Positions 2,412 through 32,064 are shown, counted from the first letter of the stretch. The stretch is 64,000 bases of DNA from Rhodobiaceae bacterium (GCA_009885825.1 VFJY01000065.1:1-64000); one strand, 5' to 3'. Numbers and translations are program-made. Notes: generated by a model from the letters alone, not told the origin.

Positions 2412-2857
2412 CGGCCATTTGACAATAGCCTGAGCCCAGTCGCCACCGCATCTTATCTAGTTCCGTGCCGTCGTCCTCGATCGCAACCCACATGAGTCAG
2501 GTTCTGGCAAAGAATACAGTATGCATGTTGTGAATTTTGTTCAACCAAAACCTGAATCAAGCGCATTCTCCACATTCTCCACGTGCATTCCGACCCTTCG
2601 GGTGCGGGCTGCGGGCGTCGGACATTTGAGCTTTGAATAGCGCTTGAACGGCGTAAGGTGCGGTCAGTGTTTTCGCCGCGTACAAAGTTTTTCTCTTGCG
2701 TCCAACGATGTAATTTCTTCGCTTTTAGACTCGAATGTTGTGATGAACTCCCCGATTTCAGCCGCGCGAAAAGCGTAAATGTCGCTGCGGACCGCGTTCG
2801 ATTCGGATTGCAGAATTGACATTCAAACCCGCAATCGTGTTGCTCCATCAATGTTCA

Positions 2858-2882
2858 ACGTGAATTTCCGTGAAGTTCACGT
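2858..2882. repeat. Inverted repeat ACGTGAA-N11-TTCACGT upstream of relaxase
   Basis: Perfect 7-bp arms 2858-2864 and 2876-2882; a further CGTGAA lies in the spacer (2869-2874). Confidence 0.6.
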
Positions 2883-3183
2883 AGCTGAAGCAGTCAGAGA
2901 AAAAATTGGAATGGCAGTGAAGTCCAGAGAAATACTCAGCACGCGGATCAAAGTGGGGAGTAAAGCAGGATTAAAGCAATGGTGACAAGTTGGTACCAAA
3001 GTCGCCGAAAGTGATGGAAGTAGAATGACTTATGATACCAGCACATTTTGGCCGTGACGGCATGATGTGGACAACATCGATGTAAACAGTTGAAACACTT
3101 GATGTCTGCGGACAGCACCTTGCAATTCGGATAATTCAACACATCTGACAATGCGGGACGCCCCATCTGGAGTTTGCATTGTA

Positions 3184-4920
3184 ATGTCAGAGCAAGAGTT
3201 CGAACCGCGACTGGGCAGGATTGGTCACGAGAAGTCAGCACGTCCTAAGCCCTTTGTCCGTCAGGTGCTGGATGTTGCCTACAAGAGCGGGTTCAAGACG
3301 CGGAAGAAGTCATCGTTCACCGGACAGCGCATTGGGCGTGGTGCGGCATGGGGCACGCTGACGTCAGCGGGCCTGATGAACAGAGGGGGTCGCCGCGCTG
3401 TGGTGAAGGTCCGCATAGCTAAGTTGAGACCTGGCAACTTCGCTGCACCCCGTGCCCATCTGCGCTACATCCAGCGCGACGGTGTTGATCGGTCCGGTGA
3501 ACCGGGGAAACTCTATGGGCCGGAATTGGATGAAGTTGACGGTGGCGCATTCACCGACAAATGCGATGGCGACCGGCACCAGTTTCGGATAATTGTGTCA
3601 CCAGATGACGGCGACAGGCTCGCGGAGCTCAAACCCTTTGTCCGGGACTTGATGCAGGACATGGAACATGACCTCGAGACCAAACTCGATTGGGTCGCCG
3701 TTGATCACTACAACACTGGCCATCCCCATTCCCATATTGTCATCCGGGGCAAAGCTGAAGACGGCAAAGACCTGATCATGGCCCGAGACTACGTCACCCA
3801 CGGGATCAGGGCCAGAGCAGGCGAATGGCTTACATTGGAACTTGGGCCGGAGGACGAATTTGAAAAATGTATCAAGCTCGCCCGCGAAGTGGAGACGGAT
3901 CGCTTCACCAAGCTCGACAGATCAATCCTGAAGCATGTGGATCAGAACATTCTGACGATCAGCGCCATGCCGCCATCCGAGCCGCTTGTGCATACTTCGC
4001 ATATGAGGAGGCTCAAGCATCTGAGCAATTTGGGCTTGGCCACAGAACTACAAACAGGCGTCTGGGAGATTGATCCGGACATCGAACGCAAGCTCAAAGG
4101 CTTGGGCAAGCGCAACGACATCATCGCTACGATGCACCGGGCTATGCGGGAAGCGAAGATTGACCGTCCGGCTGGCAGCTTCGCTATCTTCGACGGCGAG
4201 AACTTACTTAAGCCCGTTATTGGCCGTATCGCCGCAGTGGGACTCACAGACGAAATCAATGACCGTCACTTCGTCGTTGTTGATGGCATCGACGGCAAGG
4301 TTCACTACGCTGATATAGGTCTCATCAGGCCAGAGGCACTGCCAAGCAAAGGCATGATTGTTTCCCTTGAAACAGCAGAACAAGAAACGGGCAGCTCCCA
4401 ACAGACACGACTGCGGATTCTGTCTTACCTGAACCTGGAAAAACTCGTGGCCACGGATGGCGCGACTTGGCTTGATCGTGAGCTTGCCAGCAAAACCCCA
4501 ATGCACCTCGGAGATCGAGAATTTGGCACGGACGTCAAATCAGCATTGCGCAATCGCCTGCAATGGCTGACAGAGCGGGGAATGGTTGAACCAGCGCCAG
4601 ATGGCGGTGTCCGCCCTGCCGCCGCTGCCATGAAAGCGCTGACCCGCAAGGAGATGAACCAGGCCGTTGCCAACCATTCTGCAGCTTCTGGCTTGCAAGC
4701 AGCCCGGCTGGTGGACGGTCAACGATTTGAAGGGGCCTACATGCGTTCAATTCCACTCGCCTCAGGAAAGCTTGCTGTCTTCGAGAACAGCAAAGAGTTT
4801 ACGCTTGTTCCTTGGCGACCAAGTTTCGAAGACATCAGAGGCAAGTCTGTCACGGGAAAAGTGAGCGGGTCGACTATAGCTTGGGAGCTGGCTGGGCGCA
4901 CGAAGGGTTTGGGTATCTGA
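3184..4920 (+). CDS. Relaxase/mobilization nuclease, VirD2-like with DUF3363
   Basis: MSEQEFEPRLGRIGHEK.. start, HLRYIQRDGV, HQFRIIVSPDDG, HUH-type HPHSHIVIRG, ARDYVTHGIRARAGE, and the typical C-terminal ending GRTKGLGI, so the protein appears intact. Confidence 0.9.
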   Translation: MSEQEFEPRLGRIGHEKSARPKPFVRQVLDVAYKSGFKTRKKSSFTGQRIGRGAAWGTLTSAGLMNRGGRRAVVKVRIAKLRPGNFAAPRAHLRYIQRDGVDRSGEPGKLYGPELDEVDGGAFTDKCDGDRHQFRIIVSPDDGDRLAELKPFVRDLMQDMEHDLETKLDWVAVDHYNTGHPHSHIVIRGKAEDGKDLIMARDYVTHGIRARAGEWLTLELGPEDEFEKCIKLAREVETDRFTKLDRSILKHVDQNILTISAMPPSEPLVHTSHMRRLKHLSNLGLATELQTGVWEIDPDIERKLKGLGKRNDIIATMHRAMREAKIDRPAGSFAIFDGENLLKPVIGRIAAVGLTDEINDRHFVVVDGIDGKVHYADIGLIRPEALPSKGMIVSLETAEQETGSSQQTRLRILSYLNLEKLVATDGATWLDRELASKTPMHLGDREFGTDVKSALRNRLQWLTERGMVEPAPDGGVRPAAAAMKALTRKEMNQAVANHSAASGLQAARLVDGQRFEGAYMRSIPLASGKLAVFENSKEFTLVPWRPSFEDIRGKSVTGKVSGSTIAWELAGRTKGLGI

Positions 4921-5918: not shown

Positions 5919-7945
<2,027 letters not shown>

Positions 7946-7957
<12 letters not shown>

Positions 7958-8143
7958 ATTCTTCGGCCAAGCGAGCAGGAACGTCCAGAGGGAAATGACA
8001 AGAACGCCCCCCCCGATCGTCATCCAGAAGGGATCCCTGGTGTAAAACGCCTCAAAAGCCGCCCAGCCCGCCACGACCGCGACAATCGCGATCCGGCGCC
8101 ACAGGGGCTTGTAGAAGGGATGGCTCTGGTCAATGATTTTCAT
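7946..8143 (-). CDS. Small membrane protein, hypothetical
   Basis: 65 aa with two hydrophobic stretches (IAIVAVVAGWAAFEAF, FWMTIGGGVLVISLWTFLLAW). Confidence 0.6.
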
Positions 8144-8418
8144 GGACGTTTACTAGGCGAACAGCCCCCCCAAGTCGAGGCCAAATCAGGCGGTTGCCCT
8201 GCCCTCGGGATTGAGCTATAGCGGGCGCCGTTGGAGGCCGCCTGCTTCACGCAGGTGAACATAATCGGGGTGCCGGACTGTCGCCAGTTCGCGTGCCCTT
8301 AATTGTTTCAGAATCTGCGCATTTCGTTAAGCCTCCGAGCTTCGCTGCAGGGCCTGGAATTTTCCCCGTGGGCATGTCACGCATGACTTGCCCCGTAACC
8401 TTAGGACTTAACCCCGCC

Positions 8419-10137
8419 ATGGCGAAATCCGTCGCTTCCATGAACCCCACCCGCGAAGACTTTGAAGCCCTCCTCACCGAAAGCTATCTCGACAATCCCG
8501 CCACCGAAGGCGTCGTCGTCAAGGGCCGGGTCGTCGCCGTGGAAAATGATTTTGTGATTATCGATGTCGGCCTGAAAACCGAAGGCCGCGTGGCGCTGAA
8601 GGAATTTTCCCAGCCCGGCAAGGATATCGCCATCAAGGCTGGCGACACGGTTGAGGTTTATCTCGAGCGCATTGAAAACGCGCTGGGCGAAGCGGTTCTC
8701 TCGCGCGACAAGGCCCGCCGCGAAGAGGCCTGGACCCGCCTTGAGGAAATGAGCACCAAGAACGAACGCGTCGATGGCGTGATCTTTGGCCGCGTCAAAG
8801 GCGGCTTCACTGTTGATCTCGGCGGCGCCGTGGCGTTCCTTCCCGGCAGCCAAGTTGACATTCGCCCCATCCGGGACGTGGGCCCGCTCATGCATGTGGC
8901 CCAGCCCTTCCAGATTCTCAAGATGGATCGCCGCCGGGGCAACATTGTCGTGTCGCGCCGCGCCATCATGGAAGAAACCCGCGCCGAGCAGCGCTCGGAG
9001 CTCGTGCAGAACCTGGCTGAAGGCCAGATCGTTGACGGGGTGGTCAAGAACATCACCGACTACGGCGCCTTCGTTGACCTGGGCGGCATCGATGGCCTCC
9101 TGCACGTCACCGACATTGCCTGGAAACGCGTCAATCACCCCTCCGATGTCCTGGCTGTCGGCCAGACCATCAAGGTGCAGATCGTCCGCATCAACCCCGA
9201 CACCCAGCGCATATCCCTTGGCATGAAGCAGTTGGACAAGGACCCATGGGAACTGGTTGCCGGCAAATATCCAATCGGCGCAAAGGTCCGCGGCAAGGTC
9301 ACCAACATCACCGACTATGGCGCATTCATCGAACTGGAAGATGGCATCGAAGGCCTCGTCCATGTCTCCGAGATGAGCTGGACCAAGAAGAACGTGCATC
9401 CCGGCAAGATTCTCTCAACCTCGGAAGAAGTTGATGTTCAGGTTCTCGAAATCGACAGCTCCAAGCGCCGCATTTCGCTTGGCTTGAAGCAGATTCAGGA
9501 CAACCCATGGGAAACCTTCACCACGAAATATCCCAACGGCGCCATTGTTGAAGGCGAGATCAAGAACATCACTGAATTCGGCCTGTTCATTGGCCTCGAT
9601 GGCGATGTTGATGGCATGGTCCATCTCTCTGATCTCGACTGGAAGCGCAGCGGCGAGGAAGCCATCAAGGATTACAAGAAGGGCGATACCGTCAAGGCCA
9701 TCGTTCTCGATGTTGACCGCGAGAAGGAACGCATTTCGCTGGGCATCAAGCAGCTCTCCGGCGATCAGCCAAAGTCTGCCGCTGGTTCCGGCATCAAGAA
9801 GGGCGACACGGTGACCTGCGAGGTGACGAAGGTTGAGGAAGCCGGTCTCGAAGTCAAGATCGCCGGTTCCGACATGACAGCCTATGTCAAGCGCGGCGAT
9901 CTGGCGCGCGACCGTTCAGAACAGCGCACCGAGCGTTTTGCCGTCGGCGAAAAATTCGATGCCAAGGTCACGGTGTTCGATGCCAAGGCCCGCAAGATGA
10001 ACGTCTCCGTCAAGGCGCTCGAAATTTCTGACGAGAAGGAAGCCGTCGCCCAGTATGGCTCCTCCGATTCGGGTGCATCCCTCGGTGATATCCTTGTCGC
10101 GGCGCTGAAGAAAAAGGACGCCGAGGGCAAGGAATAG
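8419..10137 (+). CDS. rpsA: 30S ribosomal protein S1
   Basis: Multiple S1 repeats (VVKNITDYGAFVDLGGIDGLLHVTDIAW, VTNITDYGAFIELEDGIEGLVHVSEMSW); start MAKSVASMNPTREDFEALL. Confidence 0.97.
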   Translation: MAKSVASMNPTREDFEALLTESYLDNPATEGVVVKGRVVAVENDFVIIDVGLKTEGRVALKEFSQPGKDIAIKAGDTVEVYLERIENALGEAVLSRDKARREEAWTRLEEMSTKNERVDGVIFGRVKGGFTVDLGGAVAFLPGSQVDIRPIRDVGPLMHVAQPFQILKMDRRRGNIVVSRRAIMEETRAEQRSELVQNLAEGQIVDGVVKNITDYGAFVDLGGIDGLLHVTDIAWKRVNHPSDVLAVGQTIKVQIVRINPDTQRISLGMKQLDKDPWELVAGKYPIGAKVRGKVTNITDYGAFIELEDGIEGLVHVSEMSWTKKNVHPGKILSTSEEVDVQVLEIDSSKRRISLGLKQIQDNPWETFTTKYPNGAIVEGEIKNITEFGLFIGLDGDVDGMVHLSDLDWKRSGEEAIKDYKKGDTVKAIVLDVDREKERISLGIKQLSGDQPKSAAGSGIKKGDTVTCEVTKVEEAGLEVKIAGSDMTAYVKRGDLARDRSEQRTERFAVGEKFDAKVTVFDAKARKMNVSVKALEISDEKEAVAQYGSSDSGASLGDILVAALKKKDAEGKE

Positions 10138-21700: not shown

Positions 21701-22108
21701 CACGCCGGCTTCAATGGGAAAAAGCTGCAAGATGCGCTCGCAGAAAGCGTGGATGGTTTGGATCTTGAAGCCGCCGGGAGTTTCGAGAGTTGCGGTAAAC
21801 AGGCGGCGCGCCCGGCCGCGAAGCCTGTCATCGATCCTTTCGCAGCCGATGCTGGCAAGCTGCGAGGTCAGGTCAGGGTCATCAATGCCGATCCACTCGC
21901 TTAAGCGTTCATGCAGCCGGTTGGCCATTTCAGTGGCCGCAGCCTTGGTATAGGTGAGGCACAGGATGGTCGAGGGGTCCACACCTTCCAGCATGAGCCG
22001 AATGACCCGGTCGACCAGAACATGGGTTTTGCCCGACCCCGCATTGGCGCTGACCCAGGCGGAAGCCGCGGGATTGGACGCCCTTTTCTGTTCGGGCGTG
22101 GCGCTCAT
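18752..22108 (-). CDS. addA: Double-strand break repair helicase AddA
   Basis: ASAWVSANAGSGKTHVLVDRVIRLML, VDEAQDTSLAQWQI, MTIHGAKGLESSIVMLPDT, C-terminal nuclease LDYKTDW; ATGA overlap with addB. Confidence 0.95.
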   Translation of the reverse strand: MSATPEQKRASNPAASAWVSANAGSGKTHVLVDRVIRLMLEGVDPSTILCLTYTKAAATEMANRLHERLSEWIGIDDPDLTSQLASIGCERIDDRLRGRARRLFTATLETPGGFKIQTIHAFCERILQLFPIEAGVAPGFEVLEASQAAELLNNSRDMVLLDAQRDENSPLAKAFATIARHAQTDAFDELLDSLIAKRQDLQDSLAHYKTLENIETDMRKQLGVKPGQTAETIRQQFLNFDRAMVERVAAEFLASGKRDQDTGARLLSLASAADGQAAALSYRKIFYTSKFDEPKLLTSIATKDLRDSNPWLLDWLQAEYDRAISLVQAEDSLIRIDATLALLLLADRIIAQFEIAKQRRGAYDFEDLILRTRDLLTDRRAAQWVLYKLDRGFQHVLVDEAQDTSLAQWQIVNALTEEFFSGEGALEKSGRTFFVVGDHKQSIYSFQGADPAAFELSRVKFRAQILAAAQAFHDVDLTISYRSTAEVLAIVDRVFAEGTRARIGLDGVIPRALHHESNRKSAPGLFELWPLIRPGEEPEPEPWQAPVDREPAKSPKRLLARQIALTIKSWLGRRNIAALGRAVEPGDILILFRTRSILFDALISELRKLGVPVAGADRLKLSKNIAVLDMMALVRFVLLPEDDYSLACILKSPLAPAPISEDMLFELANGRGRATLWARLSVSNDARCMEAFRTLKDWLRLSKYSRPFEFLSAVLIKTRKAILARLGSEAGDALDALLEASLTYEETCSSSLGGFADWFHSEDAEIKRNMESGRGEVRLMTIHGAKGLESSIVMLPDTTTPPDDRKNSSLMFVDMGPDKPSLPLWRLSRLSQSPVIDKWKNAVKDTALEEYRRLLYVAMTRARDELYVCGCQNRNKLSENSWYAMVLESLQLPQDGMDLWRFGPEALHGAISPVKVKEAEDMPTWLGSAPAFPDTVQKTFAPTRMASPHPAGSTAALGRGRIIHKILQELPRLEPQKQLEFAQRILARNSLDLGLADKVVGLLGHPDYRDFFGPESQPEVAIGAILPDGRRLTGKIDRLAVREKEILVLDYKTDWDAPVELQPDHPYVAQMASYVMALKLAYENRPVRAALLWTSVPRLTWVPQDMIQNAISHMAAIT

Positions 22109-25100
22109 GAGCTCTCTCCCGAGAGAACCCATTCCCGGTAGCGCGACAGGTGGTCATAGGGCGCCACCTCGTCTTCATTCTGAACCGCGAAGCGCGGAAT
22201 ATAGGCTTGGCCCGCGTCCTGGTATTTTTCCAGCAGGCCAATGAGGTTTTCGAGATGGCGACGCGCCGTTTCGGCGACATTGATGTCAACGGGTTTCAAC
22301 AGGCCGGGAGGCACGCCACCCGTAATCTTGATGTAGAGAAGTTCGCTGGCGTCATGCGGACCCAGTCCTTCAAACGCGCCATGCGAAAGCATCGCCGCCT
22401 GCAGGGTCAGTTGCGGAGAAAAACCCGCCTCGACTCTTTTGGCGCTTGGCGGTTCTCCGGTTTTGAAATCAATGATCCGTGCCGTTCCATCCGTCAGCAA
22501 ATCAATCCGGTCAGCCCGCGCGCTCAGCATAAACTTTGCAGCGCCGGTTTGCAGTTCCAAAATGCCGCGCGTTTCCGCCAGAATCCTGCGGGTGCCGGTG
22601 CGCAGCGAAACCTCATTTTCAATGATCCAGGCGGCAAGCCGCGCAAACCTGTTCCACCAGAACCCCATGATTTCCGCATTGTCCTTGAAGGCCAGGAAAT
22701 GCAGCCGCCCCAGATTGATCAGTTCATCCAGGGCTGCGGCAGGAAGAGTCAGCGGATATCTGCCAAAAAATTCGCCGATCACCGTGTGGAAAAGCGTTCC
22801 CCTCAGCGCCGCATCGGGCCGCGCCGAAATTTCGGCGAGCGGCTCCAGTCCCAGCACGGAGCTTGCATAGATGGCATAGGGGTCGCGAATGAGCGTTTCA
22901 ATGCGTGTGACACTGAGGCGGCGGGGCCTGGCAAATACGGGAGGACGCGGCAGCGGCTTCGGCAAAGGCGAAATTGCAGGCGGCTCATCCAGCCGCCCCG
23001 CCCATGTCTGCCATGGCTCCGCCGCAAGCTTTGCCATATCCAGACCCGCCGCCTTGGCGATCGTCTGCAGGCGCAAGATCCACCGGGATGGAATTGCAGG
23101 TTCCATGCCGTCGCGCCGTGACCATGTGAGGAATACTTTCTGCGCGCCAAAGGCCTGGATGAAATCATGGGCCGACTGGCCGATCTGCCGCTCCGGCTGG
23201 TGCATGCCGAAAATATCGCGCATGGGCCGGTTGAGCCACGGTCCCGGCTGCGCCTGCCGCGGCCAATTGCCTTCATTCAGGCCGCCGAGAATGACAGTTT
23301 GCGGGGCCACCAGCCGGGCTTCCAAAAGGCCAAGGATCGAAAGCCGCGCTGTTTGGATATTGGCGTTTCGCAAGGGAATCGATTGCAGGTGGTGGCGTAT
23401 GGTGATTGCCGCGCGGTTGAAATCGCAGGCGGGAAACCGCCGGGCCTCCTGTCGCAGCGTCTCTATCAACAGGCGCAGTGTTTCCGCCTCGACGCCCAGC
23501 CAGAATTCCGGCCCCGCAATGTTTTCAGCGACTGAGATGAGATTCTCCAGATGCAGGGAAAATGTGTTTAGAGCGGGCTGTGAGAGCGGCAACAGTATTT
23601 CTGCGATGTGTTGAAGGCCGGTTCTGGCGTTTTGCCAGTCACTGTCTTCCAGCCTTCGGACGGAAGGATGCGGGTGAGCATCTTCAGCACTGGTATTCGC
23701 GCACCGGTCAAACAACGCCACAAGCTGGCCAACGCCACCGCTCACCGGAAGCGAGCGAAACAGGGTGAGTTCGAGATGCATGGAAAAACGCCGAAATGCA
23801 TCGCGCTCAAACCCAAATCTGGCGAGCGGATGGCCAAGCAGGGCAACCAGCGCTGGCGCCGAAAATTCATGCCTGACGGCATCCATCAGCAGCCCCATGA
23901 GCGAGGCGGCGCCGAAATGAATGAGCGGTTCACCGGCTGAATCATCAACGCTGATGTTCCAGCGCGCCAGCGCCGATTTGACCCGCCGGGCCAATCCCCG
24001 GTCAGGCGTCACCAGTGCGATTTCGCCCGTGGGCTTTTCAAGTTCACGCCGCATGACAAGCGCGATGATTGAAGCCTCGTCATTTTTGTCTTTGGCCTCG
24101 ATGAGCGAGACACCGGCGAGACCGTCGCGCACCTGTGCCTGGCCATCGGCAAGGATCACCCGCCATTTGTCGGCGACATCCGAGGGCCGCATGAGTTCGC
24201 TGGCAAGCCAGCCCCGGCTGCCGGCACGCGCGCCCAGAACCGGAACGCCGCCGCGCTCCACATCCAGTTCATCGATCAACTGCTTCAGCGTGTACTGGGG
24301 ATGCTGTGGCGTCACACTGTCCCAGCTCTCGGCATCCATCTGCTGGTCCAGCCCCGGCAAGATCACCGCGCCATGCGCAAGCCTGGAAATGGCCTTGAGC
24401 AACTCCCGCGTGGCATGGATTGTGCCTGTCGAACCTGCCGCAATGATCGGCCCGCGTGGCGGATGTTCACCCAGCCGGCTGGCTTCCAGCCGTAGCAGCC
24501 CTCCCCGGCGCTCCTTGGCCCCCATGATGTTTTCACGGACATAGAGAGCAGGCAGTCTTACGCGGATGAGGTCGAGGAGGCTGAGGATGGCTTCCCGGTG
24601 CACGGCGAGATCAACCTGATAGGCTTCGGGTATGCGCTCCAGGGAAATCTCCTCGGTTTCCAGGCTGTCGACAAGCTCTGCGAGGCTTGCGGCCAGCGAC
24701 TGGGCTTGGCCGGGCGAGGCGGCGATTTCCTGCGCCAGAGCCAGATGCGGATTTTCCTGCGCCCATTCATCAACGAAAGACACCAGCGCAAACGCCCGCC
24801 CGATGGGCGGAATTTCCGGCGGCAATTGCAAATCCATTGGCTGGATTTCAAGCAGGTCCTCATCCACATCCCCAATGGGCCGGATGCTGGGCAGGAGCAA
24901 CGCGGATTTTCCGCTGTCCGCCAGCAGCCTGAATTGCAGTTCCCGCGCCGCCCGCCGTGTGGGAACCAGGATGGTCCACGCCGCGAGGTCGCCAGCCATG
25001 GTGCCCTTGGAAAACGGAAACCCGGTCAGGATTGTTTTTGACAGGATATCCAGGAATGGCGCGTCGCACGGTATGGTGAATACGTTTGCGTGGCTTTTAT

Positions 25101-25125
25101 GCATGGCCAAGGCGGAGGTTCCCAA
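22105..25125 (-). CDS. addB: Double-strand break repair protein AddB
   Basis: ~1000 aa upstream of addA; ILGGLNEGNWPRQ, SVTRIETLIRDPYAIYASSVLGLEPL, RIIDFKTGEPPS. Confidence 0.93.
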   Translation of the reverse strand: MGTSALAMHKSHANVFTIPCDAPFLDILSKTILTGFPFSKGTMAGDLAAWTILVPTRRAARELQFRLLADSGKSALLLPSIRPIGDVDEDLLEIQPMDLQLPPEIPPIGRAFALVSFVDEWAQENPHLALAQEIAASPGQAQSLAASLAELVDSLETEEISLERIPEAYQVDLAVHREAILSLLDLIRVRLPALYVRENIMGAKERRGGLLRLEASRLGEHPPRGPIIAAGSTGTIHATRELLKAISRLAHGAVILPGLDQQMDAESWDSVTPQHPQYTLKQLIDELDVERGGVPVLGARAGSRGWLASELMRPSDVADKWRVILADGQAQVRDGLAGVSLIEAKDKNDEASIIALVMRRELEKPTGEIALVTPDRGLARRVKSALARWNISVDDSAGEPLIHFGAASLMGLLMDAVRHEFSAPALVALLGHPLARFGFERDAFRRFSMHLELTLFRSLPVSGGVGQLVALFDRCANTSAEDAHPHPSVRRLEDSDWQNARTGLQHIAEILLPLSQPALNTFSLHLENLISVAENIAGPEFWLGVEAETLRLLIETLRQEARRFPACDFNRAAITIRHHLQSIPLRNANIQTARLSILGLLEARLVAPQTVILGGLNEGNWPRQAQPGPWLNRPMRDIFGMHQPERQIGQSAHDFIQAFGAQKVFLTWSRRDGMEPAIPSRWILRLQTIAKAAGLDMAKLAAEPWQTWAGRLDEPPAISPLPKPLPRPPVFARPRRLSVTRIETLIRDPYAIYASSVLGLEPLAEISARPDAALRGTLFHTVIGEFFGRYPLTLPAAALDELINLGRLHFLAFKDNAEIMGFWWNRFARLAAWIIENEVSLRTGTRRILAETRGILELQTGAAKFMLSARADRIDLLTDGTARIIDFKTGEPPSAKRVEAGFSPQLTLQAAMLSHGAFEGLGPHDASELLYIKITGGVPPGLLKPVDINVAETARRHLENLIGLLEKYQDAGQAYIPRFAVQNEDEVAPYDHLSRYREWVLSGESS

Positions 25126-25402
25126 ATTAGACGTTTCCAGTCACGCCGTGTCTGTTTGTATCCTGACTGTACCAGCAGTTCGCCGGACCGTTAACCATAA
25201 GCGCATATTTTATCCAATTATTTCGGCCCTGGGCGCCGGCGGCCCCAAGCGAATGATTGACTGGAAATTTTGACTGTGCAGTATGGCGGCGGGACTAAAG
25301 ACAGCCTTTAAGTGGAAGCGGTGCGCGGATATTCAGATGTTCGCGCATTCTCTGAATGCGACGCGGGGTATTCTTCGCGGAAAAGGACTTGGCCCAACCA
25401 AT

Positions 25403-25427
25403 TTGAAAATTGAGTTGATTGAAAATT
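25403..25427. repeat. Direct repeat TTGAAAATT x2 upstream of luxR-type gene
   Basis: TTGAAAATT at 25403-25411 and 25419-25427, 16-bp spacing. Confidence 0.4.
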
Positions 25428-25559
25428 CTGTGCCCGCGTTGGGGGCGGCTGTCCTTTGCCAAATGAAGAATTGAATGATCTGCGGGTCTGCTTCAGCGGT
25501 TTTGCCATTTGCTTAAGGGATGCGGAAATCTGTCTGGTGGCGTTGCGTGGGAGTTGGGT

Positions 25560-26375
25560 ATGCACATAGATGAGATCGTGGCCGTCTCGCCAGGAATTGA
25601 CTCGCCTGCAGGCGAGTATGGTTGTTCCGGCTCTCCGGATATCCCGCCAGTCGGGGAAGCCGCGCAAACCGCGCGTGTGGCCGTCGTTGATTCACGCAAT
25701 CTCCTGCGGGAATGCATCGTGCGTCACATCGCGGCATGCGGCGATTTTGTGGCGATGGGGTATGATTGCGTGGATGAGGTTTTCCATCCCGAAGGATCAC
25801 ATGATCATTCCATTGTCGTGCTGTGTTCAATCACTGAAACACGCAAGGCGGCTCTCGGCGAGCTGGCAAGGCTGCGAAACCGGAATTCATCTTGCCCCGT
25901 CGTGATCCTGACCGGCGTCAATGATCATGATTTGACCGCTGATTTTTTGCGCCATGGCGCCCGGGGCGTCATTCCCCTGGCGTTTCCGGCAGACAGCGTT
26001 GTTGAGGCATTGCGGTTTGTCCTTGCCGGGGGAACATTTGTTCCCTCTGAAAGCCTTCCCCCAAAACCCTGGATCACCGCCCGGCACGCATTGCCGGGAA
26101 ACTGCGCGTTGACCACAAGGGAAGAGCAGGTCGTGGCGCTTCTGCGGTCTGGCAAGCAAAACAAGCAGATTGCCCATGATATGGGCCTTGCAATCGGCAC
26201 GGTGAAGGTTCACCTGCACAATATCATGAACAAACTGGGTGCCCGCAACCGGATACAAGTGTTGGCCTGCAGGGGCCTGATTGCTGGATCCAAGCAGACA
26301 GCTACCGGCCATCCACCCCCTGTGTCGGCTGACACGGGAGCCATCGCTGGCCTTGTTCGTTCAGCCACTGCTTAA
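25560..26375 (+). CDS. LuxR/NarL-type transcriptional regulator with degenerate receiver-like domain
   Basis: C-terminal HTH CALTTREEQVVALLRSGKQNKQIAHDMGLAIGTVKVHLHNIMNKLGARNRIQ; N-terminal receiver-like fold lacks the phosphoacceptor Asp (HSIVVLCSITET). Start could be earlier, at 25509. Confidence 0.85.
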   Translation: MHIDEIVAVSPGIDSPAGEYGCSGSPDIPPVGEAAQTARVAVVDSRNLLRECIVRHIAACGDFVAMGYDCVDEVFHPEGSHDHSIVVLCSITETRKAALGELARLRNRNSSCPVVILTGVNDHDLTADFLRHGARGVIPLAFPADSVVEALRFVLAGGTFVPSESLPPKPWITARHALPGNCALTTREEQVVALLRSGKQNKQIAHDMGLAIGTVKVHLHNIMNKLGARNRIQVLACRGLIAGSKQTATGHPPPVSADTGAIAGLVRSATA

Positions 26376-26586
26376 GCAGATAATTGTCGCTGAAGCCGGT
26401 TCCGTTGCCGTTGAAGTTGTCGTTGTTTCCGTTGCCGTTGAAGCTTCCAGAATTTCCATTGCCATTGAAATTGCCGCCCCCCTGTCCGGGGCACAGGTCA
26501 GCCGGCGCCTTGTCAGGTGGGAGCGGCAGCAGGAAGCTTGTGCCAAGCAGGGCGGCAAAAACGACGCTTTTAGCGGTGATAGACAT
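26302..26586 (-). CDS. Small secreted Asn/Gly-repeat protein (9-residue period)
   Basis: N-terminal hydrophobic segment; repeats NGNGNSGSF-NGNGNNDNF-NGNGTGFSD; AGGAG Shine-Dalgarno just upstream of ATG. Confidence 0.72.
   Translation of the reverse strand: MSITAKSVVFAALLGTSFLLPLPPDKAPADLCPGQGGGNFNGNGNSGSFNGNGNNDNFNGNGTGFSDNYLLKQWLNEQGQRWLPCQPTQGVDGR
26386..26466 (-). repeat. 9-residue (27-bp) coding repeats
   Basis: Three units in the 94-aa ORF. Confidence 0.65.
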
Positions 26587-26617
26587 GGCTCCTGCTCCTC
26601 AAATTATAGAAATGTCA

Positions 26618-27043
26618 TCAGGGATTGCCATTGAAATTTCCGTTGAAATTGCCAGCATTGTTGTTGCCGTTGAAGGACCCGCCGTTGAAGTTTCCATTTG
26701 AAAACCCCTTGTTGCCATTGCCGTTGAAACCGCCGGTGTTGCCGTTGCCATTGAAGGCGCCAACATTGTTGTTGCCGTTGCCTGGCCCCGTGTTGTCGTT
26801 ACCGTTGAAAGCGCCGACATTCTGGTTGCCGCTTGATTTCATCTTGTTGTTCCGGCCATTGAAGGCTCCAAGATTTTGGTTTCCGCCGTTGAATGCGCCA
26901 ATGTTTCCCTCGCCGGTGTTTTGATATCCAATGTTGTCTTGGTCGCCAAAGATCACCTCGCGGATTTTGTCGTCGAGCGCGTCAGCGAGGCTTGTTGTTG
27001 TCAAAAGGCCGAGCAGGGCCGCCGTGGTCAAAAAAAGTCTCAT
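26618..27043 (-). CDS. Small secreted Asn/Gly-repeat protein (10- then 18-residue period)
   Basis: Signal peptide MRLFLTTAALLGLLTTTSLADA; repeats NIGAFNGGNQ / NVGAFNGNDNTGPGNGNN / NVGAFNGNGNTGGFNGNG; CAGGAG Shine-Dalgarno. Confidence 0.8.
   Translation of the reverse strand: MRLFLTTAALLGLLTTTSLADALDDKIREVIFGDQDNIGYQNTGEGNIGAFNGGNQNLGAFNGRNNKMKSSGNQNVGAFNGNDNTGPGNGNNNVGAFNGNGNTGGFNGNGNKGFSNGNFNGGSFNGNNNAGNFNGNFNGNP
26660..26875 (-). repeat. Four 18-residue (54-bp) coding repeats
   Basis: NLGAFNGRNNKMKSSGNQ, NVGAFNGNDNTGPGNGNN, NVGAFNGNGNTGGFNGNG, NKGFSNGNFNGGSFNGNN. Confidence 0.75.
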
Positions 27044-27133
27044 TTTAAACTCCTGGATGAAGATGTGGTTTGGGGCGCCTGGGCTGGCCACTGCGCAAGC
27101 CCAGGGCTCCTTCATTTTACTGTCATGGAACGG

Positions 27134-27580
27134 CTAGCAAAGGTACAGGCAAGAAGGCACGTTGCCGTTGCCGTTATCGTTTCCGTTATAGCTGCCATAA
27201 TTCCAGTTGCCGTTGCCGTTGCCGTTGTAACTGCCATAGTTGCCATTGCCGTTGTAGTTGCCATTGTCATAGCCATGGTTCCAGTTGCCATTGTAGTTGC
27301 CGTTGCCGGAACCATAATTGGCGTTTCCATTGGCGTTTCCGTTGCCGGAACCCGTGTTGTAGTTGCCGTTGTAGTTGCCGTTGCCGGAGCCAATGTTGCC
27401 ATTGCCATTGCCATTGCCATTGTAGGATCCGGCATTGGCATTGCCATTTCCATTGCCGTTGTAGCTGCCGACATTGCCGTTGCCATTGCCATTGCCGTTG
27501 TTGTTCCCGCCGGTGACTGTCGCCTGCGCGAACGTCGCCATGGCCGCCAACAAGGCCGACGCGATCAAAAGTTTCTTCAT
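27134..27580 (-). CDS. Small secreted Asn/Gly-repeat protein (exact 13-residue period)
   Basis: Signal peptide MKKLLIASALLAAMATFAQA; eight consecutive 13-mers G-x-x-N-G-N-x-N-G-N-x-N-x, then PSCLYLC; GAGGAGGT Shine-Dalgarno. Confidence 0.83.
   Translation of the reverse strand: MKKLLIASALLAAMATFAQATVTGGNNNGNGNGNGNVGSYNGNGNGNANAGSYNGNGNGNGNIGSGNGNYNGNYNTGSGNGNANGNANYGSGNGNYNGNWNHGYDNGNYNGNGNYGSYNGNGNGNWNYGSYNGNDNGNGNVPSCLYLC
27158..27469 (-). repeat. Eight 39-bp (13-residue) coding repeats
   Basis: GSYNGNGNGNANA/GSYNGNGNGNGNI/GSGNGNYNGNYNT/GSGNGNANGNANY/GSGNGNYNGNWNH/GYDNGNYNGNGNY/GSYNGNGNGNWNY/GSYNGNDNGNGNV; 8 x 39 = 312 bp. Confidence 0.9.
27396..27422. repeat. TTGCCA hexanucleotide tandem tract (4.5 copies) inside the 13-mer repeat gene
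   Basis: TTGCCATTGCCATTGCCATTGCCATTG read directly. Confidence 0.85.
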
Positions 27581-27777
27581 GATAGACCTCCTCAGTGCAA
27601 AGACGATCACTGCCGCTTGACTTATCTGGTGTCGCTGTTTCCAGAAGCTGCCCTATTCTTTGCCTTTTCAACAAACGCGACGATTGGCTTGTCGCATGGG
27701 GTAGGCGGCGCCCGCAATTCAGCCAATGGGCATATTGCGAAGGGCATATAACTATAGGTTTAACGCTACTTGGATTG

Positions 27778-29622
27778 TCAAAAGGGGATATCGAGCTTCA
27801 CACTGCCGGAAGCGGTGAGGCCGCCTTCGGTGTCGTAGCCAAATTCGGCCACTGATCCAAGCTGCCACCCTGCATCGGCTGTGTAGCGGCTTTCAAAACC
27901 CGCGAAACCGCGGGCGCCGACCCCCGGCCCACCTGCCTCAAAGCTCAGGGTTTGGCCAAGCAAGACCGCGTCCACTGACTGGCTGTCCGTGAAATATCCC
28001 TCGGCGCCAAGGCGGAGCGCATGGGTGATGGTCCCGCCGGACAACTCGTAAGGCGCCGTGGAAGCGGCAAGTTGCGCCCGTACTTCAAGGGCGTCAACGC
28101 GGCGGCCATGGACATCCAGGTTGGCTGCCGACCCATGTTCCGCGTGGTTTTCGATAAAGAGGGCGGCATAGCGCAGGCGGACGCTAGGTGTCAGCGTCGC
28201 ATCGCCCGCCAGGATATCCGTTCCCAAGGCAAGTGAGGGGTTGAACAGTGCGCCGAGATAGTTTGCCTCGGCATGTTCCAATCCACCAGCCGCAAGGTTG
28301 TTGGCAACGCGCCGGTCACTGTCAAGCTTCGCGATGCCCGCTGCGACCCCAAGGTCGAAGAATACCCCAGCTCTTGTGAAGCTGGCATAGCCGCCGGCGA
28401 AATAGCTCTGCATGTCGATGGCTTGTGAGTCCGTGGCTGTTTCCATTTTGCCAAAGGTCGCGCCGCCAAAGAATCCGGCGCGGGCGGAATAATGGACGGG
28501 CTGGTCAACGCCAATCATTGCGCCGCTGAACAGGCTGTCAAAGCCCACGCTGGGGCCGTCGTCTTTGGCATGGCGATAGCCGCCGATTGATTTGAGCCAC
28601 GCCGAGTCGCCGGCGCCACGCCCTGCGCGGCTCCCGGCGAAGCGTTCGTCCAGCGCACCGGCGATTGCTCGCGTCACATCGGACAGCATCTCATCGTGGG
28701 CAGAAAATCCAGTTGGATCGACGACAGCAAGGAGATTGTCCGCCGTCGCCGCGTAGGGCGAGCCAAACGTGTGCAAGTCGGCAATATTTGGCAGATTGAA
28801 TTGCAGCGCCGTGTTCATTCCGTTGGCGACGTTCACCGTTCCATTGGTGCCGGCAAAATTGATGGCGCCCTGGATCACGGAGCCGCTGCGCAGGTTAAGT
28901 ATCACGCCGTCCGCGAGTGAGGAAACCCCGATGGCCTGGCTCGCGCCATCGAGAGGGACAGCTATTGAACCTGAATTTGTTATTGTGGCTCCATCGCCGT
29001 TGTCGCCAATGATCAGGCCGGAAGACGCAAGCCCGGTGGTTTCGATTATGCCAAGGTTTTCAAACAGGCCGTCGGCGCCATCCAGGATAACACCGGATGC
29101 GCCATCGCCCGATGCCAGGATTGATCCCCCATTTCGACTGCGGCTGCCCACCCCAGCGGCAATGAGTCCCGCAGCGCCATCTCCCCGTGTTTCCAGGGAA
29201 CCCCGATTGGTGATGATGGCATCATCGCCAATTGATACAATGGAGTGGGCGCCGTCAGCGGTCGTCATGATGCTGCCGGAATTTTCAATCTCTGCAGCGA
29301 GGCCAGTGGACATAATCGCTGCCGCCTTGAACCCTTCCTGCAGAAGCGAGCCGCCCCACTGGTTTTCAAAGCGCTGGTTGTCATCTGCCATGGCGATAGC
29401 GTCAACACCATCAACCCGCGCCGTCAATGATCCACCGGATACAATCGTTCCAATGTCATTCGGATGCGCCACGATCAGATTGCCAATGAAAGCCTGGCCA
29501 CTGTCGATGGTGAAACTTTGCGAAAAGACCTGGCCGGGAAAAAACAGGGCTGCCCCGGCGGCGGCTCCCCGAAGCGAAACTCCAAACTTACGCATACACA
29601 CAACCATGCCCAGGCTATGCAA
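27778..29622 (-). CDS. Classical autotransporter (type Va) with repetitive passenger and C-terminal beta-barrel
   Basis: N-terminal signal MRKFGVSLRGAAAGAALFFPGQVFSQ; ~25-aa passenger repeats; barrel from ~AWLKSIGGYRHAKDDG ending ..GSVKLDIPF (terminal Phe). Confidence 0.85.
   Translation of the reverse strand: MHSLGMVVCMRKFGVSLRGAAAGAALFFPGQVFSQSFTIDSGQAFIGNLIVAHPNDIGTIVSGGSLTARVDGVDAIAMADDNQRFENQWGGSLLQEGFKAAAIMSTGLAAEIENSGSIMTTADGAHSIVSIGDDAIITNRGSLETRGDGAAGLIAAGVGSRSRNGGSILASGDGASGVILDGADGLFENLGIIETTGLASSGLIIGDNGDGATITNSGSIAVPLDGASQAIGVSSLADGVILNLRSGSVIQGAINFAGTNGTVNVANGMNTALQFNLPNIADLHTFGSPYAATADNLLAVVDPTGFSAHDEMLSDVTRAIAGALDERFAGSRAGRGAGDSAWLKSIGGYRHAKDDGPSVGFDSLFSGAMIGVDQPVHYSARAGFFGGATFGKMETATDSQAIDMQSYFAGGYASFTRAGVFFDLGVAAGIAKLDSDRRVANNLAAGGLEHAEANYLGALFNPSLALGTDILAGDATLTPSVRLRYAALFIENHAEHGSAANLDVHGRRVDALEVRAQLAASTAPYELSGGTITHALRLGAEGYFTDSQSVDAVLLGQTLSFEAGGPGVGARGFAGFESRYTADAGWQLGSVAEFGYDTEGGLTASGSVKLDIPF
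28873..29433 (-). repeat. ~25-residue passenger repeats in autotransporter
   Basis: GSLLQEGFKAAAIMSTGLAAEIENS/GSIMTTADGAHSIVSIGDDAIITNR/GSLETRGDGAAGLIAAGVGSRSRNG/GSILASGDGASGVILDGADGLFENL (each 25 aa), then 27- and 29-aa variants. Confidence 0.8.
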
Positions 29623-29839
29623 CTTGCACAGCGTTACCCCGTCCCTTCAGGAATAATCACTTGCTCGGTTCCGGATGCTGTGATGCCAGTTGATCTCATC
29701 ACGGCCCCACGATTGGAACGCCGGGATCACCACATCACGTGGCAGGTGACCTCTCAAGTAAATTCTAAAACGTCAGTAAAATTTTAGTTAAATTTTCAAC
29801 AACGCACCGTCATAGCGTCATTTCAAAAACCACTTCCGG

Positions 29840-30568
29840 CTAGGCCGTCGCGAGTTCGGCTTCGGCAAGCCCAATCGCGCCGGGCGTTCCCACGTGCAGC
29901 CATTTGCCATGATGGGCGAGGCCGTGCAGCCGTTCGCCTGCGATGGACCGGTCCCACAATGCGTTCATCGAAAACTTGCCGTGAGGAGCGTCTTCAAGGA
30001 GACGGGGGTGCATGAGGTAACATCCAATATAGACAAGTGATGAGCCGCCGCGTTTTCGAACAATGCGTCCATCCTCTTTGACATCAAAGTCGCCATTGCC
30101 ATCATAGCCAACTGTTTTCTCAATCGGACACAGCAGGAGCAGGCAATCCATGGTCGTGTCGTTCCAGGCAGCGCACAGGAGACTCAACGCTGGCACGCCT
30201 TCATCGATCCAGAAACTGTCACTGTTGAGAACGAAAAACGGCTGCTGGCCCAAATGGGGAAGGGCTTTTGCAACGCCGCCACCCGTATCGAGCAGCTCAT
30301 TGCGTTCATCGGACAAGGTGATGGCGGGGTTGGTTTTGTCTTCAGACCACGCGACGATTTTCTCGGCCCGGTGGTGCATGTTGACAACAACATTGTTAAT
30401 CCCCGCCGCCTGCAACTTGTCCATTCCATAATCGATTAAGGCTTTCCCGGAAACCTTGATCAGGGGCTTTGGCAAATGATCTGTCAGGGGCCGCATGCGC
30501 AAGCCCAGGCCTGCCGCGAGAACCATCGCGTGGGTTGGTTTCAGGCTCATTCGTCCGTCTTGTCCCAA
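29840..30568 (-). CDS. murU: N-acetylmuramate alpha-1-phosphate uridylyltransferase-like nucleotidyltransferase
   Basis: AMVLAAGLGLRMRPLTDHLPKPLIKVSGKALIDY..LLDTGGGVAKAL..FFVLNSDSFW; next to the AmgK-like domain. Confidence 0.88.
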   Translation of the reverse strand: MGQDGRMSLKPTHAMVLAAGLGLRMRPLTDHLPKPLIKVSGKALIDYGMDKLQAAGINNVVVNMHHRAEKIVAWSEDKTNPAITLSDERNELLDTGGGVAKALPHLGQQPFFVLNSDSFWIDEGVPALSLLCAAWNDTTMDCLLLLCPIEKTVGYDGNGDFDVKEDGRIVRKRGGSSLVYIGCYLMHPRLLEDAPHGKFSMNALWDRSIAGERLHGLAHHGKWLHVGTPGAIGLAEAELATA

Positions 30569-32064
30569 AGCGCGGGAAAATGCCGCTCATACCACACCTT
30601 CAGCCGCGCCAGGTCCGGGTGCTCCAGGTTGCGCAAGAGATAGCGCGAAACCCGGGGCAGATGCTTGAGGTAAATATGCTTTCCGTCGCGCTTGGAAAGC
30701 CGCGCGAAGATGCCAAGAATTTTCGTGGCGCGCTGGGCGCCGAAAATGGCAAAGGCCCGTCTGAAGTCCTCGGTGTCAAATCCCGCTGTTGCCGACCGCA
30801 AGTCACAGTAATAGCCAAAGAGCTCATCGGCAAATTCAGATCCGACATCGACGCGCGCATCCTGCAGCAATGAAACAACATCATAGGCCGGATGGCCCAT
30901 CAGGCAATCCTGCGTGTCAATGATGCCCACACGGCGAAGGCCAGATCGCTCCGGCATCCACAACAGGTTTGGCGAATGAAAATCTCGCAGTGTCCAAACC
31001 GGATTTTTCGTTGCAACCTGTGCCAAGGGCTCTCGCCAAAGAGCCAGAAAATCCGCGGCAACCTCCGGATCGGAGGTGTTGTTTTTGACAGAGGGCCAAT
31101 ACCACGAAAGCAGGAGGTCAATCTCTATCGCCAGAGCGTCGAAATCATATTCGGGCAAATGATAGGTCGCGCCGCCCCTCAGGGGAACAGAGCGCGGCCA
31201 AACCCTTCCGGCCATATCCGCGAGAACCTCTATTGCCGCCCGCATGGACTCGCGCATATCCTGGCCTGCGGCAGTCATTTTTCCAAACACGTTGCCGCCG
31301 AGAGACTCAATGAGCGCCAGGCCATTTCCAAGGTCCAGGTCGTGGATTTCAGCCGTGCTGTAGCCAAGGCCGAAGAGATAGTCGTTGATGGCGGCAACCG
31401 CGCCCATGCCTTCCGCCAGGTGGGCGATTGCGCTGTAGGTCCTGTTGTTTTTGACAATTGGCCCGTCGGGACGATGCGGCATATCCATCAGCAGCATGGA
31501 TTTTGAATCAAGTGTCAAGTTCTCATAGCGGCGCGCAGACGCATCCCCCTCAAAAAAAGATCGCGCCCCGTTTCTGAAGGAAGAGGTTTTGATGAAGTCA
31601 TTGATAAGGGCGTTTCGCTCGAGACAGGTGACCCAGCGCCCTTGCGCTTGCAGTTTCAGCAGGCGGTTTTGGCCAGTGCCGGAAAACGAAATTTCAAGAC
31701 AGTCGATGCAGATCTTGCGTTCCAGGTTCTCGGGCCATTCAACCATGAGCACATTTCTGGCGACCAAGTCATCAAGCCCCAGTTCCTCGATTTCCGGGGC
31801 AGAGCGCAGGCGGTAAAGGTCGGCGTGAACCACGGGAACACGCGTATTGTCGTAGGCCTGGAGCAGGGAAAATGTCGGGCTTGGAATATCAAATTCCTGC
31901 TGGCCAATGGCAAGCGCCCGGATAAAGGCCCGGGCAAAAGTGGATTTCCCCGACCCCAGTTCGCCCGAAAGCAGGATGCATTGGCCCGCCCTCGCCCACA
32001 GGGAGAGCTCTGCTGCCAGGCCTTCGGTGGCGGCTGGCGAAGAGGATTTGAATTCAACACTCAT
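30547..32064 (-). CDS. Fusion: TsaE (tRNA t6A ATPase) + AmgK-like sugar/aminoglycoside phosphotransferase
   Basis: N-term ILLSGELGSGKSTFARAFIRAL..SPTFSLLQAY..HADLYRL..VEWPEN (TsaE); C-term WTLRDFHSPNLLWMPERSGLRRVGIIDTQDCLMGHPAYDVVSLLQDAR (APH fold). Confidence 0.9.
   Translation of the reverse strand: MSVEFKSSSPAATEGLAAELSLWARAGQCILLSGELGSGKSTFARAFIRALAIGQQEFDIPSPTFSLLQAYDNTRVPVVHADLYRLRSAPEIEELGLDDLVARNVLMVEWPENLERKICIDCLEISFSGTGQNRLLKLQAQGRWVTCLERNALINDFIKTSSFRNGARSFFEGDASARRYENLTLDSKSMLLMDMPHRPDGPIVKNNRTYSAIAHLAEGMGAVAAINDYLFGLGYSTAEIHDLDLGNGLALIESLGGNVFGKMTAAGQDMRESMRAAIEVLADMAGRVWPRSVPLRGGATYHLPEYDFDALAIEIDLLLSWYWPSVKNNTSDPEVAADFLALWREPLAQVATKNPVWTLRDFHSPNLLWMPERSGLRRVGIIDTQDCLMGHPAYDVVSLLQDARVDVGSEFADELFGYYCDLRSATAGFDTEDFRRAFAIFGAQRATKILGIFARLSKRDGKHIYLKHLPRVSRYLLRNLEHPDLARLKVWYERHFPALWDKTDE

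Follow-up and report, generated by a model that had tools for sequence, protein, structure and literature searches.

A recurrent cluster of three Asn-Gly repeat genes, often near a LuxR-type regulator, in Alphaproteobacteria and several phages

Introduction

A 64,000-nucleotide stretch of DNA from a Rhodobiaceae bacterium (GCA_009885825.1, VFJY01000065.1:1-64000), called the window here, contains a 4.7-kb block that encodes a regulator, three short proteins dominated to differing degrees by Asn and Gly, and an autotransporter. The locus raises the question of which of these genes belong together and what their products might build. The three short genes, named A, B, and C, form a module that is found again in alphaproteobacteria from soil and plants and in several phages.

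An inserted block between addB and murU

The accessory block occupies positions 25126..29839, with no strand of its own, and is bordered by addB (22105-25125, minus strand) on one side and murU (29840-30568, minus strand) on the other. It holds a LuxR-type gene on the plus strand and then C, B, A, and the autotransporter gene on the minus strand, so that the short genes are read in the order A, B, C. The block's coordinates and gene content agree with the original prediction for this DNA, which had further proposed that murU and addB are normally neighbors and that the block is an accessory gain between them. Sister genomes bear out both proposals. The murU gene could be located in 34 of 37 genomes of the genus, and in all 29 of the sister loci inspected it directly abuts addB, with no counterpart of the block, so the 4.7 kb represents a gain in the window's species. 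The GC content of the block differs little from the window's (56.1% versus 57.3%), and foreign origin is therefore not shown by composition; it is synteny that shows the gain. No repeat of at least 9 bp common to both block edges was found, and no phage genes were seen within the block. The description of the block as lineage-specific holds as long as only the genus is considered, whereas the module as such occurs widely in Hyphomicrobiales and extends to a few Rhodobacterales and to phages.

Beside murU, a 505-aa ORF (30547-32064, minus strand) resembles by eye a TsaE-AmgK-type kinase fusion.

Three Asn-Gly repeat genes in the window

Gene A (27134..27580, minus strand) encodes an exported-type NG-repeat protein of 148 aa with 13-residue repeats, and its DNA is periodic at 39 bp. 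Gene B (26618..27043, minus strand) encodes a second exported-type NG-repeat protein, of 141 aa, whose sequence contains NxGAFNG repeats and an SSGN motif. The product of gene C (26302..26586, minus strand) is a short exported-type protein of 94 aa with FNGNGN repeats in its center. The combined share of Asn and Gly falls from 58% in A to 48% in B and 31% in C, which makes C only partly a repeat protein. The motif [FY]NGNxNxGx[FY]NGN occurs four times, spread over A, B, and C, and was absent from 100 dinucleotide shuffles.

Each gene is preceded by a clear Shine–Dalgarno sequence (GAGGAGG for A, CAGGAG for B, and GAGGAGCAGGAG for C), and the signal peptides, judged by eye, are canonical in A and B and less typical in C. 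The earlier statement that all three ORFs have a signal-like start, a Shine–Dalgarno sequence, and a dominance of Asn and Gly is accurate for A and B; for C it is accurate as to the Shine–Dalgarno sequence and partial in the other two respects. Gene C is called on the basis of that Shine–Dalgarno sequence and its third place in the A-B-C order, as in relatives.

The LuxR and C genes overlap by 74 bp tail to tail (26302-26375); in Kaistia (locus L111) the two are likewise convergent, with a short gap instead. Antisense to A and B runs an open frame (26876-27751, plus strand) of the VAVAIAVAV type, which mirrors the NG codons and is unlikely to be coding.

Relatives and conservation of the module

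Relatives were sought with the motif written as a degenerate DNA pattern of ~45 bits, for which an estimated ~0.015 chance matches were expected, in a collection of one genome per species covering 84,980 species. The pattern found 53 stretches, and all those with a named group are from Alphaproteobacteria, with one MAG labeled Proteobacteria only. Carriers include Mesorhizobium, Methylobacterium, Labrys (in L. okinawensis, at locus L064), Aureimonas, Kaistia, Bradyrhizobium, Afipia, Roseiarcus, and Rhodobacteraceae, among others. Matching contig positions of the cluster in the L. okinawensis genome (G063) and in a genome of the window's order (G169) suggest that Labrys is of the same order as the window's genome. 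The order and strand of A-B-C are identical in most of the 53 stretches. In these relatives, A has 13-residue repeats, B has NxGAFNG repeats and a TSGN motif, and C is short with GNGN repeats. In alignments, window A is 55–68% identical to 23 homologues and the repeat core of window B is 40–54% identical to 29 homologues, both ranges being inflated by composition bias. The window has the same arrangement, with A, B, and C in order on the same strand, signal-peptide-like starts, and a LuxR-family gene nearby. The original prediction placed the LuxR gene and the three NG-repeat proteins in one module and proposed a search of the repeat proteins and their neighborhoods across Alphaproteobacteria. 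The clusters found in many genera, with A-B-C order and LuxR linkage kept, support this part of it.

Asn-Gly codon repeats can come from slippage, and the strand opposite the repeats is also open (26876-27751, plus strand), as could be expected if the ORFs were nonfunctional low-complexity sequence. This reading is already contradicted by the conservation data and can be given almost no credence. The three-gene order is shared by many genera, and Shine–Dalgarno sequences and signal peptides accompany the ORFs. The dN/dS values in Mesorhizobium (A, 0.14; B, 0.26; C, 0.24) point to protein-level constraint on the repeats rather than to simple-repeat drift, and in gene A changes at the third codon position are ~4 times as frequent as those at the first or second.

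Several shorter matches were rejected as relatives. Matches to FNGNGN in two sister genomes (G035 and G029) are due to chance, falling in an ORF that resembles a porin and in a region that resembles a ribosomal protein, and matches to GNGNGNxG across the order are mostly unrelated GN-rich tails, with the 39-bp period in only a handful. A tblastn search of B against plasmids returned no matches, for which the low-complexity filter is the probable cause.

A fourth gene, D, was found at L104:6195-6818, L109:3033-3629, and L110:10168-11007. It joins a short NG stretch to a conserved cysteine-containing domain with the motif APGL..G...CLGS.S.G, and neither Pfam nor NCBIfam has a family that matches it above cut-off. 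A Paracoccaceae NG-repeat protein (L105:8957-10189) ends in VPLPASVLLMLGAIASLILTRRRR, which by eye resembles a VPLPA-CTERM sorting signal.

A LuxR-type regulator with a degenerate receiver

The regulator gene of the block (25509..26375, plus strand, with a probable ATG start at 25560) encodes a LuxR/NarL-family protein that matches PF00196 at 60.8 bits. Its Response_reg match is weak (19.1 bits, below cut-off), and in the alignment its receiver lacks the phospho-acceptor Asp, the position reading ...VVLCS.... No homologue was found within the genus at E ≤ 1e-20.

Across the related loci (n = 56, comprising 53 genomic and three phage loci), a LuxR-family gene is present at 34 versus an expectation of ~1.3, derived from the density of GerE genes in 14 of the carrier genomes (207 in 72.9 Mb). 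Because many loci share ancestry, these are not 34 independent events; the linkage nevertheless recurs in some twelve genera or lineages. A pseudo-receiver without the phospho-Asp is found in the window's LuxR and in eight others. In Mesorhizobium, Aureimonas, and further carriers, a NarL-type regulator has a HisKA_3 histidine kinase as its partner. The idea of one orthologous LuxR shared by the loci was rejected. The LuxR tree contains at least three lineages, with the window's protein not clearly orthologous to the rest, indicating that the association is with a kind of regulator and not with one orthologue.

Similar degenerate-receiver LuxR proteins with a KVHxRNIM-type HTH are encoded on Sinorhizobium, Mesorhizobium, and Agrobacterium plasmids (L155, L156, L157, L158, and L160), and in A. 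pusense a degenerate-receiver LuxR gene adjoins polysaccharide export genes.

Predicted structure and comparison with curli

An AlphaFold2 model of A, built from 24 sequences, has a mean pLDDT of 65.8 and strands spaced 13 residues apart. This modest-confidence model suggests a beta-repeat fold for protein A; the model of B is weaker (pLDDT 60.3). A Foldseek search of PDB folds and a PDB sequence search gave no usable relative of the modeled proteins, and NCBIfam, Pfam, and PHROG hold no family above cut-off that would name A, B, or C, with no PHROG assignment for the window's three proteins at E ≤ 0.1.

A LuxR-family regulator beside small putative secreted repeat proteins is a likeness between the window and the curli system (CsgDEFG–CsgBAC). 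By extension, A and B might be functional amyloids that polymerize outside the cell as curli-like cross-beta fibers, with C nucleating or anchoring them and the LuxR protein acting like CsgD. The short, regular N/G-rich repeats, the three related subunits, and the beta-repeat in the model of A all suit such fibers. So does a LuxR-family regulator with a degenerate receiver that has VpsT and CsgD among its matches; the CsgD model scores 39 bits against a 250-bit cut-off. However, the repeats lack the curlin motif, as had been predicted, with no match to PF07012 at E ≤ 1 in the window's A, B, and C or in their relatives. The predicted lack of csgEFG genes holds for CsgG (PF03783), which is missing from the window's genome (98% complete; an E. 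coli control was positive) and present in only 2 of 13 other genomes tested. Where curli would have these parts, the window has three Asn-Gly repeat proteins, and a MacAB-type pump stands in at some related loci. We regard curli-like amyloid as unlikely.

A regular Asn-containing beta-repeat, as predicted for A, could also serve in binding. Plant ice-recrystallization inhibitors use xxNxVxG repeats, and the three proteins might be ice-, water-, or glycan-binding beta-solenoids secreted against desiccation or freezing stress and not structural subunits. This explanation is quite improbable: no protein of this kind matched in sequence or fold, and it leaves unexplained both the exporter genes and the phage carriage described in the following sections.

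Phage copies

Complete A-B-C sets are present in three IMG/VR phage contigs. In L099, a 44-kb contig with a terminase gene, A-B-C and D (7472-8776) are near genes for a DNA polymerase exonuclease subunit and ribonucleotide reductase. L101 is a 43-kb contig that also has a terminase gene; its A-B-C and D (2559-4313) are beside genes for a gp2.5-like SSB and an exonuclease. The A-B-C set of L100 (3675-5083) immediately precedes the genes for head closure, neck, tail terminator, and tail spike proteins, which lie downstream of it. Gene D in L101 and L099 resembles D of some bacterial loci. The three contigs make phages a plausible vehicle for the window's gain, and they raise the question of why a phage carries apparent bacterial surface proteins. 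Phage carriage had no place in the original prediction.

One answer would be that A-B-C(-D) is primarily a phage module, acting in superinfection exclusion or surface masking or as an accessory of the virion or of lysis, and that bacteria took it over. Its position among phage genes in L099, L100, and L101 is what this origin would produce, but at the loci examined most copies are in bacterial genomes beside LuxR, kinase, or exporter genes and not beside phage genes. Purifying selection in Mesorhizobium and a block in the window where no phage genes were seen also weigh against it, and we consider a primarily phage function improbable.

MacAB-type exporters and a proposed route to the surface

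Genes for MacA (HlyD_3), an ABC ATPase, and MacB_PCD/FtsX adjoin the cluster at roughly ten loci, which come from six lineages (Methylobacterium, Bradyrhizobium, Afipia, Roseiarcus, a Xanthobacteraceae MAG, and Aureimonas), a feature that was likewise missing from the original prediction. Such genes are absent beside the clusters of the window, Mesorhizobium, and Kaistia. The window's genome has one MacB-like gene (39% identity), which is common to most sisters without the cluster. MacB-family pumps move periplasmic polypeptides outward, including the ~10-kDa coat proteins dispersin and CexE (PMC8277102), and by analogy a pump of this type would fit Sec-exported proteins of the size of A, B, and C. 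In the dispersin and CexE systems, with their Aat/Cex pumps, surface proteins that are small and exported by Sec are served by a MacB-like pump (PMC8277102), and the ~ten related loci with pump genes may have the same combination. Unlike in those systems, the window's cluster has no adjoining pump gene, and no sequence relation between the two sets of proteins is established. The A-B-C module would work like the curli or dispersin systems at most by analogy.

We place about even confidence in the interpretation that the LuxR gene and A-B-C together form a conserved and mobile module whose products build a regulated coat or matrix outside the cell, exported in some cases through a MacAB-type pump. 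The LuxR-family regulator would turn on the A-B-C operon, and the three small proteins would cross the inner membrane via Sec. Passage through the outer membrane would use a tripartite pump of the MacAB type. Some species encode such a pump next to the cluster; in others, including the window's, it may be encoded elsewhere. Once outside, we infer, the proteins would fold or assemble on the cell or around it as beta-repeat structures rich in Asn, with A as a long repeat subunit, B as a variant repeat, and C as a short partner.

The module probably represents a surface-coat or matrix system that is still undescribed; a literature search, in which few subscription papers were covered, found no account of anything similar. 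If this is correct, rhizobia, methylobacteria, and their relatives have an undescribed secreted-protein module, probably part of a surface coat and easily missed because its genes are short and of low complexity, and the A-B-C proteins become candidate substrates for MacAB-type pumps. A bolder proposal, possible but doubtful, is that they represent a new class of extracellular assembly, a LuxR-controlled, MacAB-exported coat of 13-residue Asn-Gly beta-repeats, and that phages encode this coat so as to reshape or mask the cell surface of the alphaproteobacteria they infect.

Autotransporters

The remaining gene of the block (27778..29622, minus strand) encodes a classical (type Va) autotransporter with a C-terminal PF03797 beta-barrel, which scores 97.9 bits against a 26-bit cut-off. 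The original prediction made it part of the system, and here the prediction fails. The autotransporter is rejected as a module member, as none of the 53 genomic and three phage loci (0 of 56) has a homologue, and it has five distant relatives in 298 genomes of the order. It is an unrelated neighbor of the module.

The NxGxx-type repeats of B recall Pentapeptide_2 and the mycobacterial PPE-MPTR proteins (PF01469). Window B scores 19.9 bits, which is under the 26.4-bit cut-off, and the window's proteins differ from that family in having no PPE domain, a classical signal peptide, and, in A, a period of 13 residues. A score of 30.8 bits is reached by a protein of Aureimonas Leaf324, encoded near A-B-C (L103:5096-6658), in which B-like Pentapeptide_2-type NG repeats are fused to a YadA head and anchor. 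The window differs in that its A, B, and C are free small proteins and its autotransporter is of the classical type, without the NG repeat. The fusion to a YadA-type trimeric autotransporter places such repeats at the surface in Leaf324, which speaks for the coat or matrix reading of A-B-C.
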